Assembly: GCF_017302315.1 (NCBI RefSeq)
Contig: NZ_JAFLDT010000043.1
Coordinates: 1 to 35,448 of the forward strand
DNA length: 35,448 nucleotides
Reading direction: 5' to 3'
DNA from: Zoogloea sp.
GTDB taxonomy: Bacteria; Pseudomonadota; Gammaproteobacteria; Burkholderiales; Rhodocyclaceae
Shown: one piece after another, positions 3,768 to 14,880 of the stretch
How the letters are laid out: every line of letters starts with the position of its first letter
Numbering within the stretch: position 1 is the first letter of the stretch
The notes under the pieces: model-generated
Seen by the model: the letters and a program-made list of their open reading frames with translations, nothing else
The model's database searches: none
What the model was told of the DNA's origin: nothing
Translations under genes and position numbers: made by a program

Positions 3768-5230
3768 TCGCGGGTGACGCGGAGCAGTTCTTCGGCCGAG
3801 GTCAACCCGCTGGCCAACAGGCGCAGGCCGTCGTCGCGCAGGCTGCGGGTGCCGTTGGCGATGGCGTGGGCGCGCAGTTGGGCTTCATCGGCGCCGGTGT
3901 GGATCAGGCGCTGGAAGGTCTCGTCGGCGACGATGAGTTCGTAGATGCCGCTGCGCCCTGCGTAGCCGGTGCGGGCGCAGTCCGGGCAGCCGGCGGCGCG
4001 CCATAGCTGCGCCGGGGTGTCCGGCCCGAGCAGCTCACGGTCGGCTGCACTGCTGGGGCTGGCGCTGCGGCAGGCAGTGCACAGCTTGCGCACCAGGCGC
4101 TGGGCCAGCACACCACGGAGGGTGGACGCCAACAGGAAGGGTTCGACACCCATGTCCACCAGCCGGGTGACCGCCGAGGCGGCGTCGTTGGTGTGCAGGG
4201 TGGCCAGCACCAGGTGGCCGGTGAGGCTGGCCTGCACGGCGATCTGGGCGGTTTCCAGGTCGCGGATCTCACCGATCATGATCACGTCCGGGTCCTGGCG
4301 CAGGATGGCGCGCAGGGCCTTGGCGAAGCTCAGCTCGATGCGCGGATTGACCTGGATCTGGCCGACGCCGGGCAGGTCGTACTCCACCGGGTCTTCAACG
4401 GTGACAATGTTGCGGCGCTTCGCGTCCATGCCCTGCAGGGCGGCGTAGAGGGTGGTGCTCTTGCCCGAGCCGGTGGGGCCGGTGACGAGGAGGATGCCGT
4501 GGGGTTCCTTGAGCAACTCGGCGAAGGGCCTCACGGTGTCGGGGGCCATGCCCAGGCTGTCGAGGCTGCGCTGGCCGCTGCCCTTGTCGAGCAGGCGCAA
4601 CACGATGCGTTCGCCGTGGGTGGTGGGCAGGGTGGACACGCGCACGTCCACCTGGCGGCCGGCCAGGCGCAGGGCGATGCGGCCATCCTGGGGCAGGCGC
4701 TTCTCGGCGATGTCCAGGCTGGCCATGATCTTGATGCGCGAGGCCATGGCGGCGTGGAGGGCCCGGTGGGGTTGGGCCACGTCCACCAGCACGCCGTCGC
4801 GGCGGAAGCGCACCACCGAATTGCGCTCGTAGGGCTCGATGTGGATGTCGCTGGCCTGCTGGCGCACCGCCTGGGTGAGCAGCGCGTTGATCATGCGGAT
4901 GATCGGCGCGTCGTCCTGGGTGTCGAGGAGATCCTCCACCGTCGGCAGCTCGGTCATCAACTGGGTGAGATCCACCTCCTGGCCCACGTCGGCGACCACC
5001 TCGGCGGCATTGTCGTCGGTGCCGGAGTAGGTTTCGGCGAGGCGTGCCTCAAAGGCTGCACGGGTGACGCTCTCGATCTGCAGGGGCAGGCCCAGGCTGC
5101 GCCGCACTTCGGCCAGGGCGGTCAGGTCGGCCCCTTCGCGCATGACCACCTCGGCATGCTCGCTGCCCAGGGCGGCCACGAGGATGCCATGGGCCTTGGC
5201 GAAGGCGTAGGGCAGGGCGGGGGCGCTCAT
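3764..5230 (-). CDS. gspE: Type II secretion assembly ATPase GspE
   Basis: A 488-residue hexameric secretion ATPase. An N-terminal T2SSE domain (about 1-100) precedes the RecA-like core with Walker [10 protein letters not shown] at 251-259, an Asp box around 313-324 (Walker B with IMIGEIRD), and a His box near [12 protein letters not shown] (338-349). The zinc-binding tetracysteine motif typical of GspE is present as C384-x2-C387 and C415-x2-C418. All catalytic motifs look intact. It powers pseudopilus extension from the cytoplasmic face through GspF/GspL. Start and stop overlap gspD and gspF by 4 nt each. Confidence 0.95.
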
Positions 5231-7449
5231 GGGGCGTAGGCTGGCGTGTCCTGCCGGGGGGTGGATATCGCCGGTGTTGCAGGGGGCGGGTTGTCCTTGG
5301 GGCGGTTGAAGGGCACGGCCGGTGGCGGGCTTCCCGGCGGCGGAAGTTCCGGTGGGCTGGGTTCGCCGCGCATCAGGGCGTCCACCCTGTCGTTCGCACG
5401 TTGCTGGCCGATCACATAGTTGTAGCGATCGGCGGAGATGCCCTGAATGCTGGCCGCGTCACGCAGGATGACCGGGCGCAGGAAGACGATCAGGTTGGTC
5501 TTGCCGCGCTTGCGCGAGTCGTAGCGGAAGAACTGGCCGAGATAGGGCAGATCGCCCAGCAGCGGGACTTTTTCCTGGCCACCGCTGTAGGTGTCTTCCA
5601 CCAGGCCGCCCAGGGCAATCATGGCGCCATCATCCACCAGAACGGTGGATTCGATGGAGCGCTTGGTGGTGGTGGGGCCGGTGGTGCTGGTGGCGGTGGA
5701 GTCGATCACCGAGGAGGCTTCCTGGTAGATCTGCAGGCGTACCGTGCCGCCCTCGGAGATCTGCGGCTTGACCTTGAGGGTCAGGCCCACATCGCGGCGC
5801 TCCACGGTGGTGAAGGGGTTGGCCGTGGCGGTGTTGCCGGTGGTGGCGTAGGTGCCGGTGACGAAGGGCACGTTGCGACCGACGACGATCTTGGCCTCCT
5901 CGTTGTCGAGGGTGACGAGGTTGGGCGTGGACAGGATGTTGGCCTTGGTGTCGGACTCGAGGAAGCGTGCCAGCATGTTGAGGTTGGCGATTTCGCGCCC
6001 GCCGACGGTAATGGTGCCGCCACCCAGCAGCAGGTTGAGACCGTTGCCGGGGAGCGTGGTGGCGCTGCTGGAGGCCAGGCTGGTGGCCAGATTGAGGATG
6101 TTGTTACCACCGCTGTTGAAGGTGGTGCCACCGAACACGGCAGTGGAGCCAAGCTTGCCGGCCTGCCACTGGATGCCGATTTCTGCGGCCTTTTCGGTGC
6201 TGACTTCGGTGATCAGAGCCTCCACATACACCTGGGCGCGGCGGCGGTCGAGCTGATCGATGACCTTGCGCAGATTGTTGTAGATGGCATCCGGCGCGGT
6301 GACGATCAATGCGTTGCTCATGGGGTCGGCCTGGACGATGCCATTGCCGGTGGCGCCTGCTCCGCTTCCCGTGTTGCTGCTGGTGCCGAAGGACGGCGTG
6401 TTGCCGACGTTGCTGCCGGTCCCGGTGGAAGTGCCGCTGCTCGTGCCGGTCGAGCTGGGTGCGAAGCTGCTGGTGGATGTGCTGCCGCCGGTGCTTCCCT
6501 GGCCACTGTTGCCGGCCTCGCCGGAGAGCACGGCCCGCAGGGTCTGGGCGACCTTGGTCGCCTCGGCGTTCTTCAGATAGACCACATGGATATTGCCAGC
6601 GGCACCCGGCTGGTCCAGGTTGGCCACGAGCTGGCGCACGGCGTTGAGCTTGGACGGGTTCTCGGAGCGCACCAGCAGGCTGTTGGTGCGCGGGTCGCCG
6701 ATCACCGAGACGCGCTGGCTGGCGTCGCCACCGACGCCGGGCGTGCCGCCAACGCTGCCGCTGCCGGCGTCGTTGAGCAGGCGATTGACCGTCTGGGCGA
6801 GATCAAGTGCCGAGGCATGCTTGAGGTTGATGACCCGCATGTCGCCCTGGGGAACGTCAATGGATTCGATGATGCGGGCGATGCGGCCGATGTTCTCGGC
6901 GTAGTCGGTGACCACCAGGGAATTGTTGCCCGGGTAGGCGGTGACGGTGTTGTTGGGGGACACCAGGGGGCGGATCACCGGTACCAGCTGCGAGGCGGAC
7001 TCGTGTTGCAGGGTGAACACCTGGGTGGTGAGGCGGTCACCGCCGCCGGCGCCCTGGCCCTTGCCCACAGGTACGGCGTGGAGCTTGGCGTCAGCCTCGG
7101 GAACGATCTTGGTGACGCCCTGGCCCTCAATGGCGGCGTAGCCCTGCAGGCGCAAGGCCGAGAGCAGGATGGAGTAACTCAGGTTGCGCGGCACCGGGCG
7201 CGCCGTGACGATGTTGAGGGTGCCCTTGACCCGTGGGTCCACCACGAAGTTGCGCCCGGAGATCTTCGAGATCGCCTGGATCACCGCGCCCACATCCGCG
7301 TTCACGAAGTTGAGGGAAACAGTCTCGCCCGCGTCCGCAGGGCCCTGGGTGCTGGGGGCGGCGGTGACGGCAAGGGGCATGGCCATGGTAGTGGCGAGGC
7401 AGGCGGCGAGGATGCGACGGGCGAACCCCTGGCGGCGGGCTGATTTCAT
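5227..7449 (-). CDS. gspD: Type II secretion outer-membrane secretin GspD
   Basis: A 740-residue secretin. It has a Sec signal peptide (basic [12 protein letters not shown], hydrophobic core, AxA-type site near residue 30). An N0 domain follows ([20 protein letters not shown]), then N1-N3 repeats in which N3 carries a long Ser/Thr/Gly-rich insertion at about 310-375, and the secretin core with [15 protein letters not shown] near 640. The tail is unusually proline-rich (from about 695). The protein forms the outer-membrane channel of the secretion system. The low-complexity Ser/Thr/Gly insertion is longer than a minimal N3 loop and may vary between strains. The start overlaps gspC by ATGA. Confidence 0.95.
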
Positions 7450-8084
7450 TGGCTGGGGACGGGTTGAACCGGAAAGCCGGCAGGCAAGGGGCGGGGCCCC
7501 GAGTCCGGTGCTTCGGTGGTGTTGTCGATGGTGGATGCGCCCTGCTGGAGCTGCGGAAGCTGGGCAATGCCGGCGGGAAGCGGTGAGGCTGTTGCTGGGC
7601 TGCTGGCGCCCCGCTCGGCAAGCCGGATGGTTTGACGCACGCCACCCGTGGTGATCTCGACGCTGCCGGCCTGCACGCGCTCAAGACGCACCCCTGAATG
7701 GATGTCCTGACCTTCAACGACACCCTGCTGGGGACCGCCATCGATGCTCAGGATGGCCCAGCCGGGTCGGCCGCCGGCGCCGGTCACCACGGCTTGCAGG
7801 GTGTAGCGGGCAGGGGCGGCGTTGACCGGGCCGGCCGCGGTGCCAGTGCCCTGGGCTCCACTTCCCATCAAATGCCGGCTCGCGATGGCCTGGGCCGCAA
7901 GCTGCGGGTCACTGGGGCTGACTACGGGCAGGGCCGGTGGGCGTGGGGCACTGAACCGCCAGAACAGATCGGCGACAACCCAGGCTGTGACGGCCATGGC
8001 CACACCCCAGGCCAGAGCAGGGCCTGAGCGCGTTACCCACGGCAGATGGAAGCGGGATGGGTCGAAGCGGTCTGAGAGTTTCAT
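7446..8084 (-). CDS. gspC: Type II secretion inner-membrane protein GspC (short, no PDZ)
   Basis: 212 residues from the ATG at 8084, a start I prefer over the in-frame TTG at 8111. A short cytoplasmic N-terminus is followed by one transmembrane helix (about 22-42, ALAWGVAMAVTAWVVADLFW), a Pro/Ala-rich linker, and an HR-like homology region (about 95-165, YTLQAVVTGAGGRPGWAILS) that binds the GspD N0 domain in the family. The C-terminus is a Pro/Ser-rich tail with no PDZ domain, unlike the roughly 270-300 residue GspC of enterobacteria but as in many short betaproteobacterial GspC proteins. As first gene of the operon it fixes transcription order C-D-E-F-G-H-I-J. Confidence 0.82.
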   Translation of the reverse strand: MKLSDRFDPSRFHLPWVTRSGPALAWGVAMAVTAWVVADLFWRFSAPRPPALPVVSPSDPQLAAQAIASRHLMGSGAQGTGTAAGPVNAAPARYTLQAVVTGAGGRPGWAILSIDGGPQQGVVEGQDIHSGVRLERVQAGSVEITTGGVRQTIRLAERGASSPATASPLPAGIAQLPQLQQGASTIDNTTEAPDSGPRPLPAGFPVQPVPSQ

Positions 8085-8110
8085 CGGGGGCGCAGCACAA
8101 AAGGCCGACA

Positions 8111-8139
8111 ATCTTAGCCGGCCTGTGTTACGGGTGAAA
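8111..8139 (-). promoter_or_regulatory. Weak sigma70-like promoter candidate for the gsp operon
   Basis: On the minus strand a TAAGAT (-10, rc of 8111-8116) lies 17 nt downstream of TTTCAC (rc of 8134-8139). It would start transcription about 20 nt before the gspC ATG at 8084 and so exclude the TTG at 8111 as start. The -35 is poor, so this is only a suggestion. Confidence 0.25.
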
Positions 8140-12242: not shown

Positions 12243-12866
12243 ATGAACGCGCCAGAACGAAACCTGCACCTGAAAGCGCCCGCCTCGGGGGAGCTCGCCC
12301 GAATCGTCCGCGTCAATGAAGAGATCAAGGCCATTGTGTCCACGGCCTTCCGGATCAACCTGATGGCACTCAACGCGATCTTCCTGGCCAAGCGGGCAGG
12401 CAACGCGGCGTTGGGCTTTGGCGTGCTGTCGAACGAGCTGCGCCGCTTTGCCCAGGATCTCACCCGGCATATGTCCTCCCTCCGCGACATGACTTCCGGC
12501 TCCGTGGGCAGTGTCACGGGAGTCGTCCAGCATCAGCGTACATCGGCCATTCTTGCCCAAGCCATCCGCCTGAGCGGCGACGGGGTGCCGGGCGTGCGTG
12601 AAGCTCGCCGGCGCGGTGCTGCGAGGTTGGCTGAACAGCAGTCGCGTCTGCGCTCCCTCGATCTACGCCTTCGTTCGGCTGTGGAGGAGACTCAGCAGCT
12701 GGTCGAACTGGGGGGTGTGCTGGCCCGTTCGGCCAAGATCGAAGCGGCCTACGGGGGGAGCTTCAGCCCGGCGCTGATGCAGGTTTCAACGGATTTCGCC
12801 GAGGTCATCGCGCAAATCAAGCGATCACTGGAAATTCTCGGCAAGGAACGCCTTATTAAGGACTAG
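12243..12866 (+). CDS. Soluble chemoreceptor-like protein with degenerate MCP signalling hairpin
   Basis: 207 residues, no signal peptide or membrane helix. Residues 20-85 resemble the hairpin tip of methyl-accepting chemotaxis proteins: FRINLMALNAIFLAKRAG followed by ALGFGVLSNELRRFAQDL aligns with the canonical N-L-L-A-L-N-A-A-I-E-A-A-R-A-G and G-R-G-F-A-V-V-A-D-E-V-R pattern. The usual Glu in the tip helix is absent and there are no obvious methylation heptads. The remainder (about 105-207) is helical and Arg/Glu-rich, probably coiled coil. The TAG stop overlaps an AGGAG ribosome site for the next gene, six bases away, so the pair is likely co-translated. I infer a signalling or scaffold partner of the di-iron protein; CheA/CheW binding is not demonstrated. 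Confidence 0.7.
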   Translation: MNAPERNLHLKAPASGELARIVRVNEEIKAIVSTAFRINLMALNAIFLAKRAGNAALGFGVLSNELRRFAQDLTRHMSSLRDMTSGSVGSVTGVVQHQRTSAILAQAIRLSGDGVPGVREARRRGAARLAEQQSRLRSLDLRLRSAVEETQQLVELGGVLARSAKIEAAYGGSFSPALMQVSTDFAEVIAQIKRSLEILGKERLIKD

Positions 12867-12872
12867 GAGACC

Positions 12873-13613
12873 ATGAAGCAGGCCCATTGCATCTATCAAC
12901 AGGACGACCACCGCTGGCTTGCCATTGCACGTGATGCCACCAAGCCTGGCTACATCATCGACACCAACGAGTACGTGGTGTTGAGCGGCGAGGAGGCGCT
13001 TCTCTGCGACCCGGGCGGCATCGAGATCTTTCCTTCGGTGTTCTCCGCGCTTTCGGCTGAATGCGATCCGACCCGTCTGGCAGGCATCTTTGCCTCCCAT
13101 CAGGACCCGGACATCATTTCTTCCCTTGCTCTTTGGCTCGAGTTCAAGCCCGATCTCAAGTGCTACATTAGCTGGCTGTGGCAATCCTTCCTGCCCCATT
13201 TCGGCGGCCAGGAAAGCACGTTTGTCCCCATCCCTGACTCGGGCATGCCGATCCGCCTGGGCGCGCTGGAACTGCAGGCCATTCCGGCCCACTATCTGCA
13301 CTCTTCGGGCAACTTCCATCTCTACGACCCGAAAGCGAAGATCCTCTTTTCGGGGGACGTGGGGGCAGCCCTGCTGCCGGCTGACGCCAGCAACCTCTAC
13401 GTTGAGGATTTTTCCCGCCACGTTCGCCATGCCGAGGCGTTCCACAAGCGCTGGATGGGCTCCGATCGGGCCAAACGCGACTGGTGCGAGCGGGTTTCCC
13501 GCCTGGAGATCGACATGATGGTGCCCCAGCATGGGGCCATCTACCAGGGCGCTGACGTTCAGCGCTTCATCAACTGGTTTGCCGCGCTGGAAGTCGGCGT
13601 CCTCAAGGGATAG
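12873..13613 (+). CDS. Stand-alone oxygen-binding di-iron protein (ODP; flavodiiron/MBL fold)
   Basis: 246 residues of metallo-beta-lactamase fold in the flavodiiron/ODP branch. The metal motif is H76-Q-D78-P-D80, with Asp where classic flavodiiron proteins have Glu. Further candidate ligands are H140 (AIPAHYLHSSGN, matching the AHFLHSPGN region of flavodiiron proteins), D162 (LFSGD) and H220 (VPQHG). It has no flavodoxin or rubredoxin domain, so it is unlikely to be an NO/O2 reductase by itself. A stand-alone ODP from Treponema denticola is known to bind di-iron and O2 and to act with a chemotaxis receptor, and the upstream neighbour here is chemoreceptor-like. A sensor role is therefore my inference. 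It may share a message with the preceding gene. A GC hairpin follows at 13621. Confidence 0.82.
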   Translation: MKQAHCIYQQDDHRWLAIARDATKPGYIIDTNEYVVLSGEEALLCDPGGIEIFPSVFSALSAECDPTRLAGIFASHQDPDIISSLALWLEFKPDLKCYISWLWQSFLPHFGGQESTFVPIPDSGMPIRLGALELQAIPAHYLHSSGNFHLYDPKAKILFSGDVGAALLPADASNLYVEDFSRHVRHAEAFHKRWMGSDRAKRDWCERVSRLEIDMMVPQHGAIYQGADVQRFINWFAALEVGVLKG

Positions 13614-14866: not shown

Positions 14867-14880
14867 TTGATCCACATCAA
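14867..14880. promoter_or_regulatory. Perfect FNR box between fnr and hemN
   Basis: TTGAT-CCAC-ATCAA, an exact consensus dyad. It is centred at 14873.5. A -10-like GATTGT at 14903-14908 downstream would put the hemN start near 14915, so the box would sit near -41.5, the classic FNR class II activating position. It also lies 52 nt upstream of the fnr ATG on the other strand, so autoregulation is possible. Confidence 0.88.

Follow-up and report, generated by a model that had tools for sequence, protein, structure and literature searches.

The DNA analyzed here (the window) is a 35,448-nucleotide stretch that makes up one contig (C104) of the 4.5 Mb genome of Zoogloea sp. Its forward strand carries a gene for a short MCP-like protein followed directly by a gene for an oxygen-binding diiron protein (ODP), and the two proteins probably form one sensory unit that provides O2/Fe input to a CheA/CheW array. 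The first-pass annotation had proposed an O2/Fe sensor with a degenerate soluble receptor on the precedent of Treponema ODP, a proposal that is well supported by the linkage of the two genes, the metal ligands of ODP, and the chemotaxis operons of distant relatives. We propose a mechanism in which ODP (12873-13613) would bind a di-iron center and O2, as its family and ligands suggest, and pass its state to the 207-amino acid partner through presumed physical contact. Once docked on the CheW/CheA proteins of a chemosensory array, the partner would shift kinase activity, and the expected outcome would be O2/Fe(II) taxis or an input that tunes the array.

The receptor-ODP pair and its conservation

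The receptor gene (12243-12866) encodes a cytoplasmic MCP-like protein of 207 amino acids in which no sensor domain was found. Six bases (12867-12872) separate its TAG stop codon from the ATG of the ODP gene (12873-13613; 246 amino acids), and the purine-rich TAGGAG that serves as the ribosome site of the ODP gene overlaps the receptor stop codon. Reading of the open reading frames thus bears out the coordinates, the soluble 207-residue protein, the short gap, and the overlapping ribosome site described in the first-pass annotation. Among 78 related loci (from the best 80 of at least 124; for one of the 80, L189, no receptor start could be assigned), the gap ranges from -4 to +39; it is -4, such that stop and start overlap, in 22 loci and 6 in 10 loci. 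The best 80 also include a counterpart with 99% identity to the window's receptor protein in one Zoogloea metagenome assembly and other Zoogloea-named records with 86-92% identity.

Linkage of the two genes is nearly complete. In a set of 100 genomes (the window's own and 99 relatives), receptor matches at E <= 1e-10 numbered 43 in 39 genomes, and ODP followed directly on the same strand in 43/43. A scan of a genome collection placed ODP directly behind the receptor in 79 of the best 80 loci of at least 124 confirmed relatives, a sample that leans to near relatives. The first-pass annotation had suggested looking for co-occurrence of the two families across genomes, which both counts confirm. 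ODP lies within -60 to +150 bases of the receptor in 15 of 16 further distant or second-copy loci and overlaps a run-on receptor frame in the 16th (L233); nine of these 16 repeat genes among the 43. Comparison with nine Zoogloea loci yielded a receptor dN/dS of 0.05-0.11, indicative of purifying selection, at a dS that is near saturation (0.86-1.21). Because of this ratio and the linkage (43/43; 79 of the best 80), we regard the pair as a functional two-gene unit. Spread beyond the order was considered and rejected: a wider profile matched 2/398 genomes of the phylum at E <= 1e-18, namely the window's own and one of the same order, with at most seven candidates scored per genome, so that misses are possible. 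In the class, 18/369 genomes matched at E <= 1e-15 (at most eight candidates scored per genome). Ordinary MCPs occur among the weaker rows; one of them, L239, lacks an ODP and is excluded from the counts given here.

The ODP frame, a stand-alone metallo-beta-lactamase-fold di-iron protein, matches PF19583 with 250.4 bits (E 1.7e-74) against a curated cut-off of 27.2. Its nearest solved structures, 6qrq (238.4 bits) and 6qnm (207 bits), were both deposited as oxygen-binding diiron protein; we take them to be the Treponema and Thermotoga proteins, respectively. The metal ligands, assigned by family, are H76-x-D78-x-D80 (13098-13112), H140 (13290-13292), D162 (13356-13358), and H220 (13530-13532), which follows Q219. 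All are present in 13/13 paired relatives and in 78/78 named paired loci (from the best 80 of at least 124 relatives), except that H220 is counted in 77/78, with one gap. Pfam assigns only ODP and Lactamase_B to the 246 amino acids and detects no flavodoxin domain; a rubredoxin module is likewise absent. The first-pass description of an ODP-like protein with H-x-D-x-D, His, Asp, and His ligands and no flavodoxin domain therefore agrees with both the profile score and the six ligands. Flavodiiron proteins belong to the same metallo-beta-lactamase superfamily, and sequence matches in the structure database relate ODP to the flavoproteins 4dik and 1vme; the Zoogloea protein, however, has no built-in electron supply because it has no flavodoxin domain. 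Judged by sequence, 12873-13613 encodes a true ODP, and its family and ligands suggest that it binds iron and O2.

ODPs also occur apart from the receptor, which counts against the proposed unit. The 100 genomes contain 99 ODP-profile matches, 56 of which are not beside a receptor match; among 22 receptor-less rows selected from these 56 (21 genes, since L064 and L094 are the same gene), one has an MCP in reach, ~1.3 kb away. Two or more ODP-profile matches were found in 21/22 genomes of the same genus. The second ODP in the window's genome (L009, G000:C89:6321-6905; 255.8 bits) has no receptor neighbor and lies close to the end of an HSP90 gene and to a VWA/CoxE-like gene. A genome of the same family encodes an ODP-GGDEF fusion in one 622-amino acid frame (L098:2232-4097). 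The sole receptor among the best 80 loci (of at least 124) that has no ODP behind it (L180:1988-3043) is linker-shortened and is followed by a gene for a hemerythrin-domain protein (PF01814, 84.3 bits). At this locus ODP may have been exchanged for another di-iron O2 binder, although the presence of the hemerythrin gene may also have an unrelated cause.

Two tip-like motifs in the partner protein

PF00015, the canonical MCP signaling domain, matches residues 26-75 of the receptor protein with 31.5 bits (E 2e-07), which lies under the Pfam gathering cut-off of 34.6 and is nonetheless more than chance; in this sense the MCP hairpin-tip pattern is kept, as the first-pass annotation had stated. 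The receptor of one relative (L230) passes the cut-off with 43.2 bits, and 21/21 members of the first receptor alignment match PF00015 at E <= 0.01. Searched against the PDB, the 21-member profile retrieved the tips of 4jpb and 3ur1 together with 3g67 first (E 9e-12 to 3e-11). At E <= 1e-4, Pfam does not recognize an MCP domain in two relatives located in chemotaxis operons (L235 and L237), which weighs against the proposed unit.

The pattern corresponds to residues 35-69 (tip 1; 12345-12449, forward strand). We number tip positions on the assumption that they follow E. coli Tsr, in which Glu385 is the tip Glu. The window protein has Leu48, Asn54, and Leu57 at the positions of Glu385, Glu391, and Arg394 and retains the equivalents of Asn381, Arg388, Gly390, Gly395, Phe396, Glu402, and Arg404. 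In an alignment of 55 rows, which represents 50 genes because L240-L244 are five repeats of genes in the set of 43, the equivalents of Asn381, Gly395, and Arg404 are kept in 55 rows, Phe396 in 53, and Glu402 in 50. The Glu385 equivalent is found in 0/55, whereas position 391 is Glu in 4 rows and position 394 is Arg in 11. (L228-L231 are left out of this set, as a neighboring ordinary MCP frame was picked there; their true receptors are among the 43.) Compared with PF00015, the partner thus shares the Asn, Gly, Phe, Glu402, and Arg404 tip equivalents, lacks Glu385 in all rows and Glu391 and Arg394 in most, and is probably too short to contain the long methylation helices. The 19 other MCPs of the same genome, the tips of which were located without using Glu, contain Glu at position 385 in 18 cases and Gln in one. 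The claimed loss of the key tip Glu is therefore correct and extends to the whole family. This difference between tip 1 and 18/19 other MCPs means that coupling to the kinase may be weak or lost. The one MCP with Gln (L216, G000:C78:134610-135158) has the tip IQAASAG instead of IEAARAG, which shows that the paired receptor is not alone in having lost the tip Glu; we suppose that L216 may be a PilJ-type protein.

The first-pass annotation described the receptor as reduced to a tip and a coiled coil. The tip is present, but the presumed coiled coil holds a strongly conserved second tip-like motif, residues 157-185 (GGVLARSAKIEAAYGGSFSPALMQVSTDF; 12711-12797, forward strand), that keeps a Glu (E167, within SAKIEAAYGG). 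The best conserved stretch in the C-terminal half of the partner is LARSAKIEAAYGG; residues 163-170 (SAKIEAAY) are identical in 58/58 sequences, and the stretch aligns gap-free with LALNAAIEAARAG of ordinary MCP tips. E167 is present in 58/58 sequences of this larger alignment and in 54/55 rows of the wider set, with Gln in the remaining row. An hhalign comparison of the C-terminal half with the tips of 18 canonical MCPs, in which 160 positions were available, placed Glu on Glu unprompted (score 21.9, E 0.0028, probability 10.9%). Scores at least this high were obtained with 0/400 column shuffles, 6/400 heptad-preserving shuffles, and 23/400 shuffles of 7-column blocks; the reversed profile scored 15.36, and masking of the motif lowered the score to 17.07. 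A smaller sequence set scored 17.94 (probability 2.7%), and at least 3/200 shuffles scored higher (null maxima 18.71-21.93). The occurrence of Glu in 18/18 members of the canonical tip set is circular, because these MCPs were chosen by a pattern that includes Glu. Direct comparison of the N- and C-terminal halves of the partner by hhalign (14.72 and 15.90) detected no homology in the tip register. As judged from these alignments, homology of the second motif to an MCP tip is suggestive, not proven.

AlphaFold2 predicted an all-helical structure for the full partner (58 sequences; mean pLDDT 87.6, pTM 0.77), with helices at 13-111, 118-168, and 172-204. Tip 1 is unbroken in this model, and the predicted turn (169-171) comes after IEAA, an arrangement also seen in MCP tips. 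When residues 1-112 were modeled alone, the helix broke at 54-58, leaving helices 14-53 and 59-110, with lower confidence (mean pLDDT 76.4, pTM 0.46, and 62 around the turn). This N-terminal model best resembles the MCP hairpins 6s1k, 3g6b, 3g67, and 1qu7 (query-based TM 0.56-0.64), with no match reaching E <= 0.001. A Foldseek search of the PDB with the full model likewise yielded no match at E <= 0.001; designed helical proteins ranked best (E 1.3e-3 to 1.1e-2; TM 0.27-0.48), and chemoreceptors followed at E 0.06 to 0.29. Since tip 1 is unbroken in one model and broken in the other, it could form a closed hairpin or could open out within a swapped dimer. If helix 118-168 ran back along 58-111, the turn at 169-171 would be placed beside tip 1. 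With tip 1 closed, four helices would then bundle with the two tips together at the same end, which is the shape of an MCP dimer within one chain; the unbroken tip 1 of the full model argues against such a bundle.

The partner may be composed of two linked hairpins with their tips at one end, one without and one with Glu. We tentatively extend this to a reading that we hold to be possible but doubtful, in which the partner would be an asymmetric chemoreceptor 'dimer' made of a single chain. Its two hairpin tips would share the tasks of one normal tip, with the Asn/Phe/Arg side kept by tip 1 and the Glu by tip 2. This pseudo-dimer would serve solely to dock an exchangeable metalloprotein sensor (ODP, and in L180 possibly hemerythrin) to CheA/CheW arrays and would do so with no membrane, HAMP, or methylation regions of its own. 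If true, the pair would constitute a minimal O2/Fe input to chemosensory arrays that is small enough for full reconstitution. The partner would be a natural covalent receptor 'dimer' whose tip protomers could be mutated independently, which is impossible in homodimeric chemoreceptors; contacts with CheW/CheA and contacts within the trimer could then be assigned to one protomer or the other by direct test. ODP sensing would also be placed in wastewater and nitrogen-cycle bacteria that live at oxic-anoxic boundaries, including Zoogloea, Azonexus, and Dechloromonas (among the best 80 of at least 124 relatives).

Known systems, chemotaxis genes, and competing explanations

Among the nearest PDB sequence matches of the partner family is 3g67, a soluble chemoreceptor of Thermotoga maritima that has a similar length (213 amino acids). 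We presume that 3g67 is an ODP-linked receptor and that 6qnm is the ODP of Thermotoga maritima. The tip of 3g67 keeps the Glu (ALNATIEAARAGEAGKGF) and is located near mid-chain, whereas tip 1 of the Zoogloea protein lies near residue 50 and the second motif near 165; the match of the partner family to 3g67 stops short of this second motif. Pairing of ODP with a receptor is already known, since published passages describe ODP-MCP coupling. According to one such passage, Treponema denticola ODP (TDE2498) is genetically coupled to TDE2496, an MCP homologue that has neither transmembrane nor sensing modules and is able to modulate CheA (PMC7666581). According to a passage of PMC7319448, the original ODP study found ODPs in MCP-containing operons of two orders, alongside other signaling genes in operons, and in fusions to signaling domains; a passage of PMC6978683 portrays ODP as a sensory subunit that is auxiliary to soluble receptors. 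The Zoogloea ODP likewise adjoins a sensorless, soluble MCP homologue; as judged from the description of TDE2496, the Zoogloea partner may differ in having a tip 1 without Glu and a second tip-like motif. CetA/CetB-type bipartite receptors, as outlined in a passage of PMC12442639, are also two-protein O2/redox receptors; unlike the ODP pair, their sensing protein uses FAD. Hence, what looks new is the build of the partner with its second tip-like motif, ODP-receptor coupling itself having been published. The literature searched contained no description of a two-tip ODP partner, with no search aimed at such a partner alone.

The pair is found inside chemotaxis operons in at least four distant relatives. 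The gene order in L230 is CheA, MCP, CheW, receptor, ODP, CheR, CheD, CheB. CheW and CheR surround the pair in L234, L235, and L237, together with CheB in L235 and CheD in L237. The operon in L234 also contains a 368-amino acid open reading frame (6992-8098) between CheW and the receptor. By phmmer, CheA, CheW, CheR, CheD, and CheB were detected in L232 and L233, and CheA and CheW accompany second copies in Zoogloea-genus genomes (L228, L229, and L231). Overall, at least one che gene was identified by phmmer in 11/16 distant or second-copy loci, one of which (L238) is counted by a CheA-like hit only. No che gene was found in the other five (L236, L240, L242, L243, and L244), of which L236 and L244 are near contig ends. 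Around window-type pairs, phmmer detected a che gene in 0/80 loci (the best 80 of at least 124; flank up to 6 kb), which makes the window copy an orphan. Genomes that carry the pair encode CheA in 39/39 cases compared with 46/61 non-carriers (Fisher p 0.0003), and in 17/17 compared with 45/60 outside the genus (p 0.03); these p-values are only a guide, because related genomes are not independent. CheA is in any case common in the group. The first-pass annotation had left a choice between an array component and a chemotaxis-independent switch. CheA in all carriers and che genes in 11/16 loci favor the array component, and the switch is disfavored, though a che gene was found in the flank of 0/80 loci of the window's own type (the best 80 of at least 124).

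One alternative holds that the partner is uncoupled from CheA and is a pseudo-receptor scaffold that links ODP to another output, such as the turnover of c-di-GMP or a regulator of respiration in the vicinity of fnr, hemN, and SirB. The absence of Glu from tip 1 in each of the 55 rows and the 0/80 count for che genes are consistent with such a scaffold, as is the presence of SirB in 67/79 and FNR in 39/79 loci (from the best 80 of at least 124). A receiver-GGDEF-EAL gene (L228:14617-16347) just downstream of ODP in a Zoogloea-genus second copy, hinting at c-di-GMP output, and the ODP-GGDEF fusion in L098 point the same way. We nevertheless consider an uncoupled partner unlikely, given that CheA is encoded by every carrier, that the pair lies inside che operons of distant relatives, and that the Asn381, Phe396, and Arg404 equivalents are retained.

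Lower still is the probability that ODP is mainly an enzyme or scavenger that reduces O2 or NO and that the small helical protein is its stabilizing subunit. Its relation to the flavoproteins 4dik and 1vme, the 56/99 ODP-profile matches (100 genomes) that have no adjacent receptor match, and the presence of FNR and HemN among the neighbors would fit such a role; the missing flavodoxin and rubredoxin modules and the che-operon placement in relatives argue against it. Moreover, the title of a 2019 study by Muok and passages citing it attribute to ODP a sensor role and the stabilization of an iron-peroxy species. That the MCP pattern marks a decaying gene and ODP alone matters is highly improbable: the sub-threshold Pfam score is set against the dN/dS of 0.05-0.11 in nine comparisons with dS near saturation, invariant residues in both partner halves over 58 sequences, and linkage in 79 of the best 80 loci (of at least 124). 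A pseudogene or a chance arrangement was rejected on the same ratio and linkage. A single sensory unit with input to CheA/CheW therefore remains our preferred reading of the pair.

Genes surrounding the pair

Pfam and NCBIfam assign the upstream neighbor of the pair to PF10136 ('site-specific recombinase') and the downstream neighbors to SirB, FNR (opposite strand), HemN, a DsbD_2-type membrane protein, and a copper-type P-type ATPase. The proximity to fnr and hemN noted in the first-pass annotation is thus confirmed in the window but is only partly general: SirB occurs in 67/79 loci, FNR in 39/79, and HemN in 34/79 (from the best 80 of at least 124), counts that are lowered by 21/79 loci shorter than 12 kb. 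FNR control of the pair was considered and rejected, because the 250 bases upstream of receptor genes contain an FNR-like box with at most one mismatch in 0/77 cases, against an expectation of 3.2 derived from sequence drawn at random within the same loci. Elsewhere in the window, the divergent fnr and hemN genes flank a perfect FNR-like box (TTGATCCACATCAA; 14867-14880). FNR-like matches with at most two mismatches number 8 in the window compared with 4.26 expected, and 7/100 shuffles contain as many. The minus strand of the window also encodes type II secretion genes (5227-8111), consisting of GspD (5227-7449) and a weak GspC (7446-8111).
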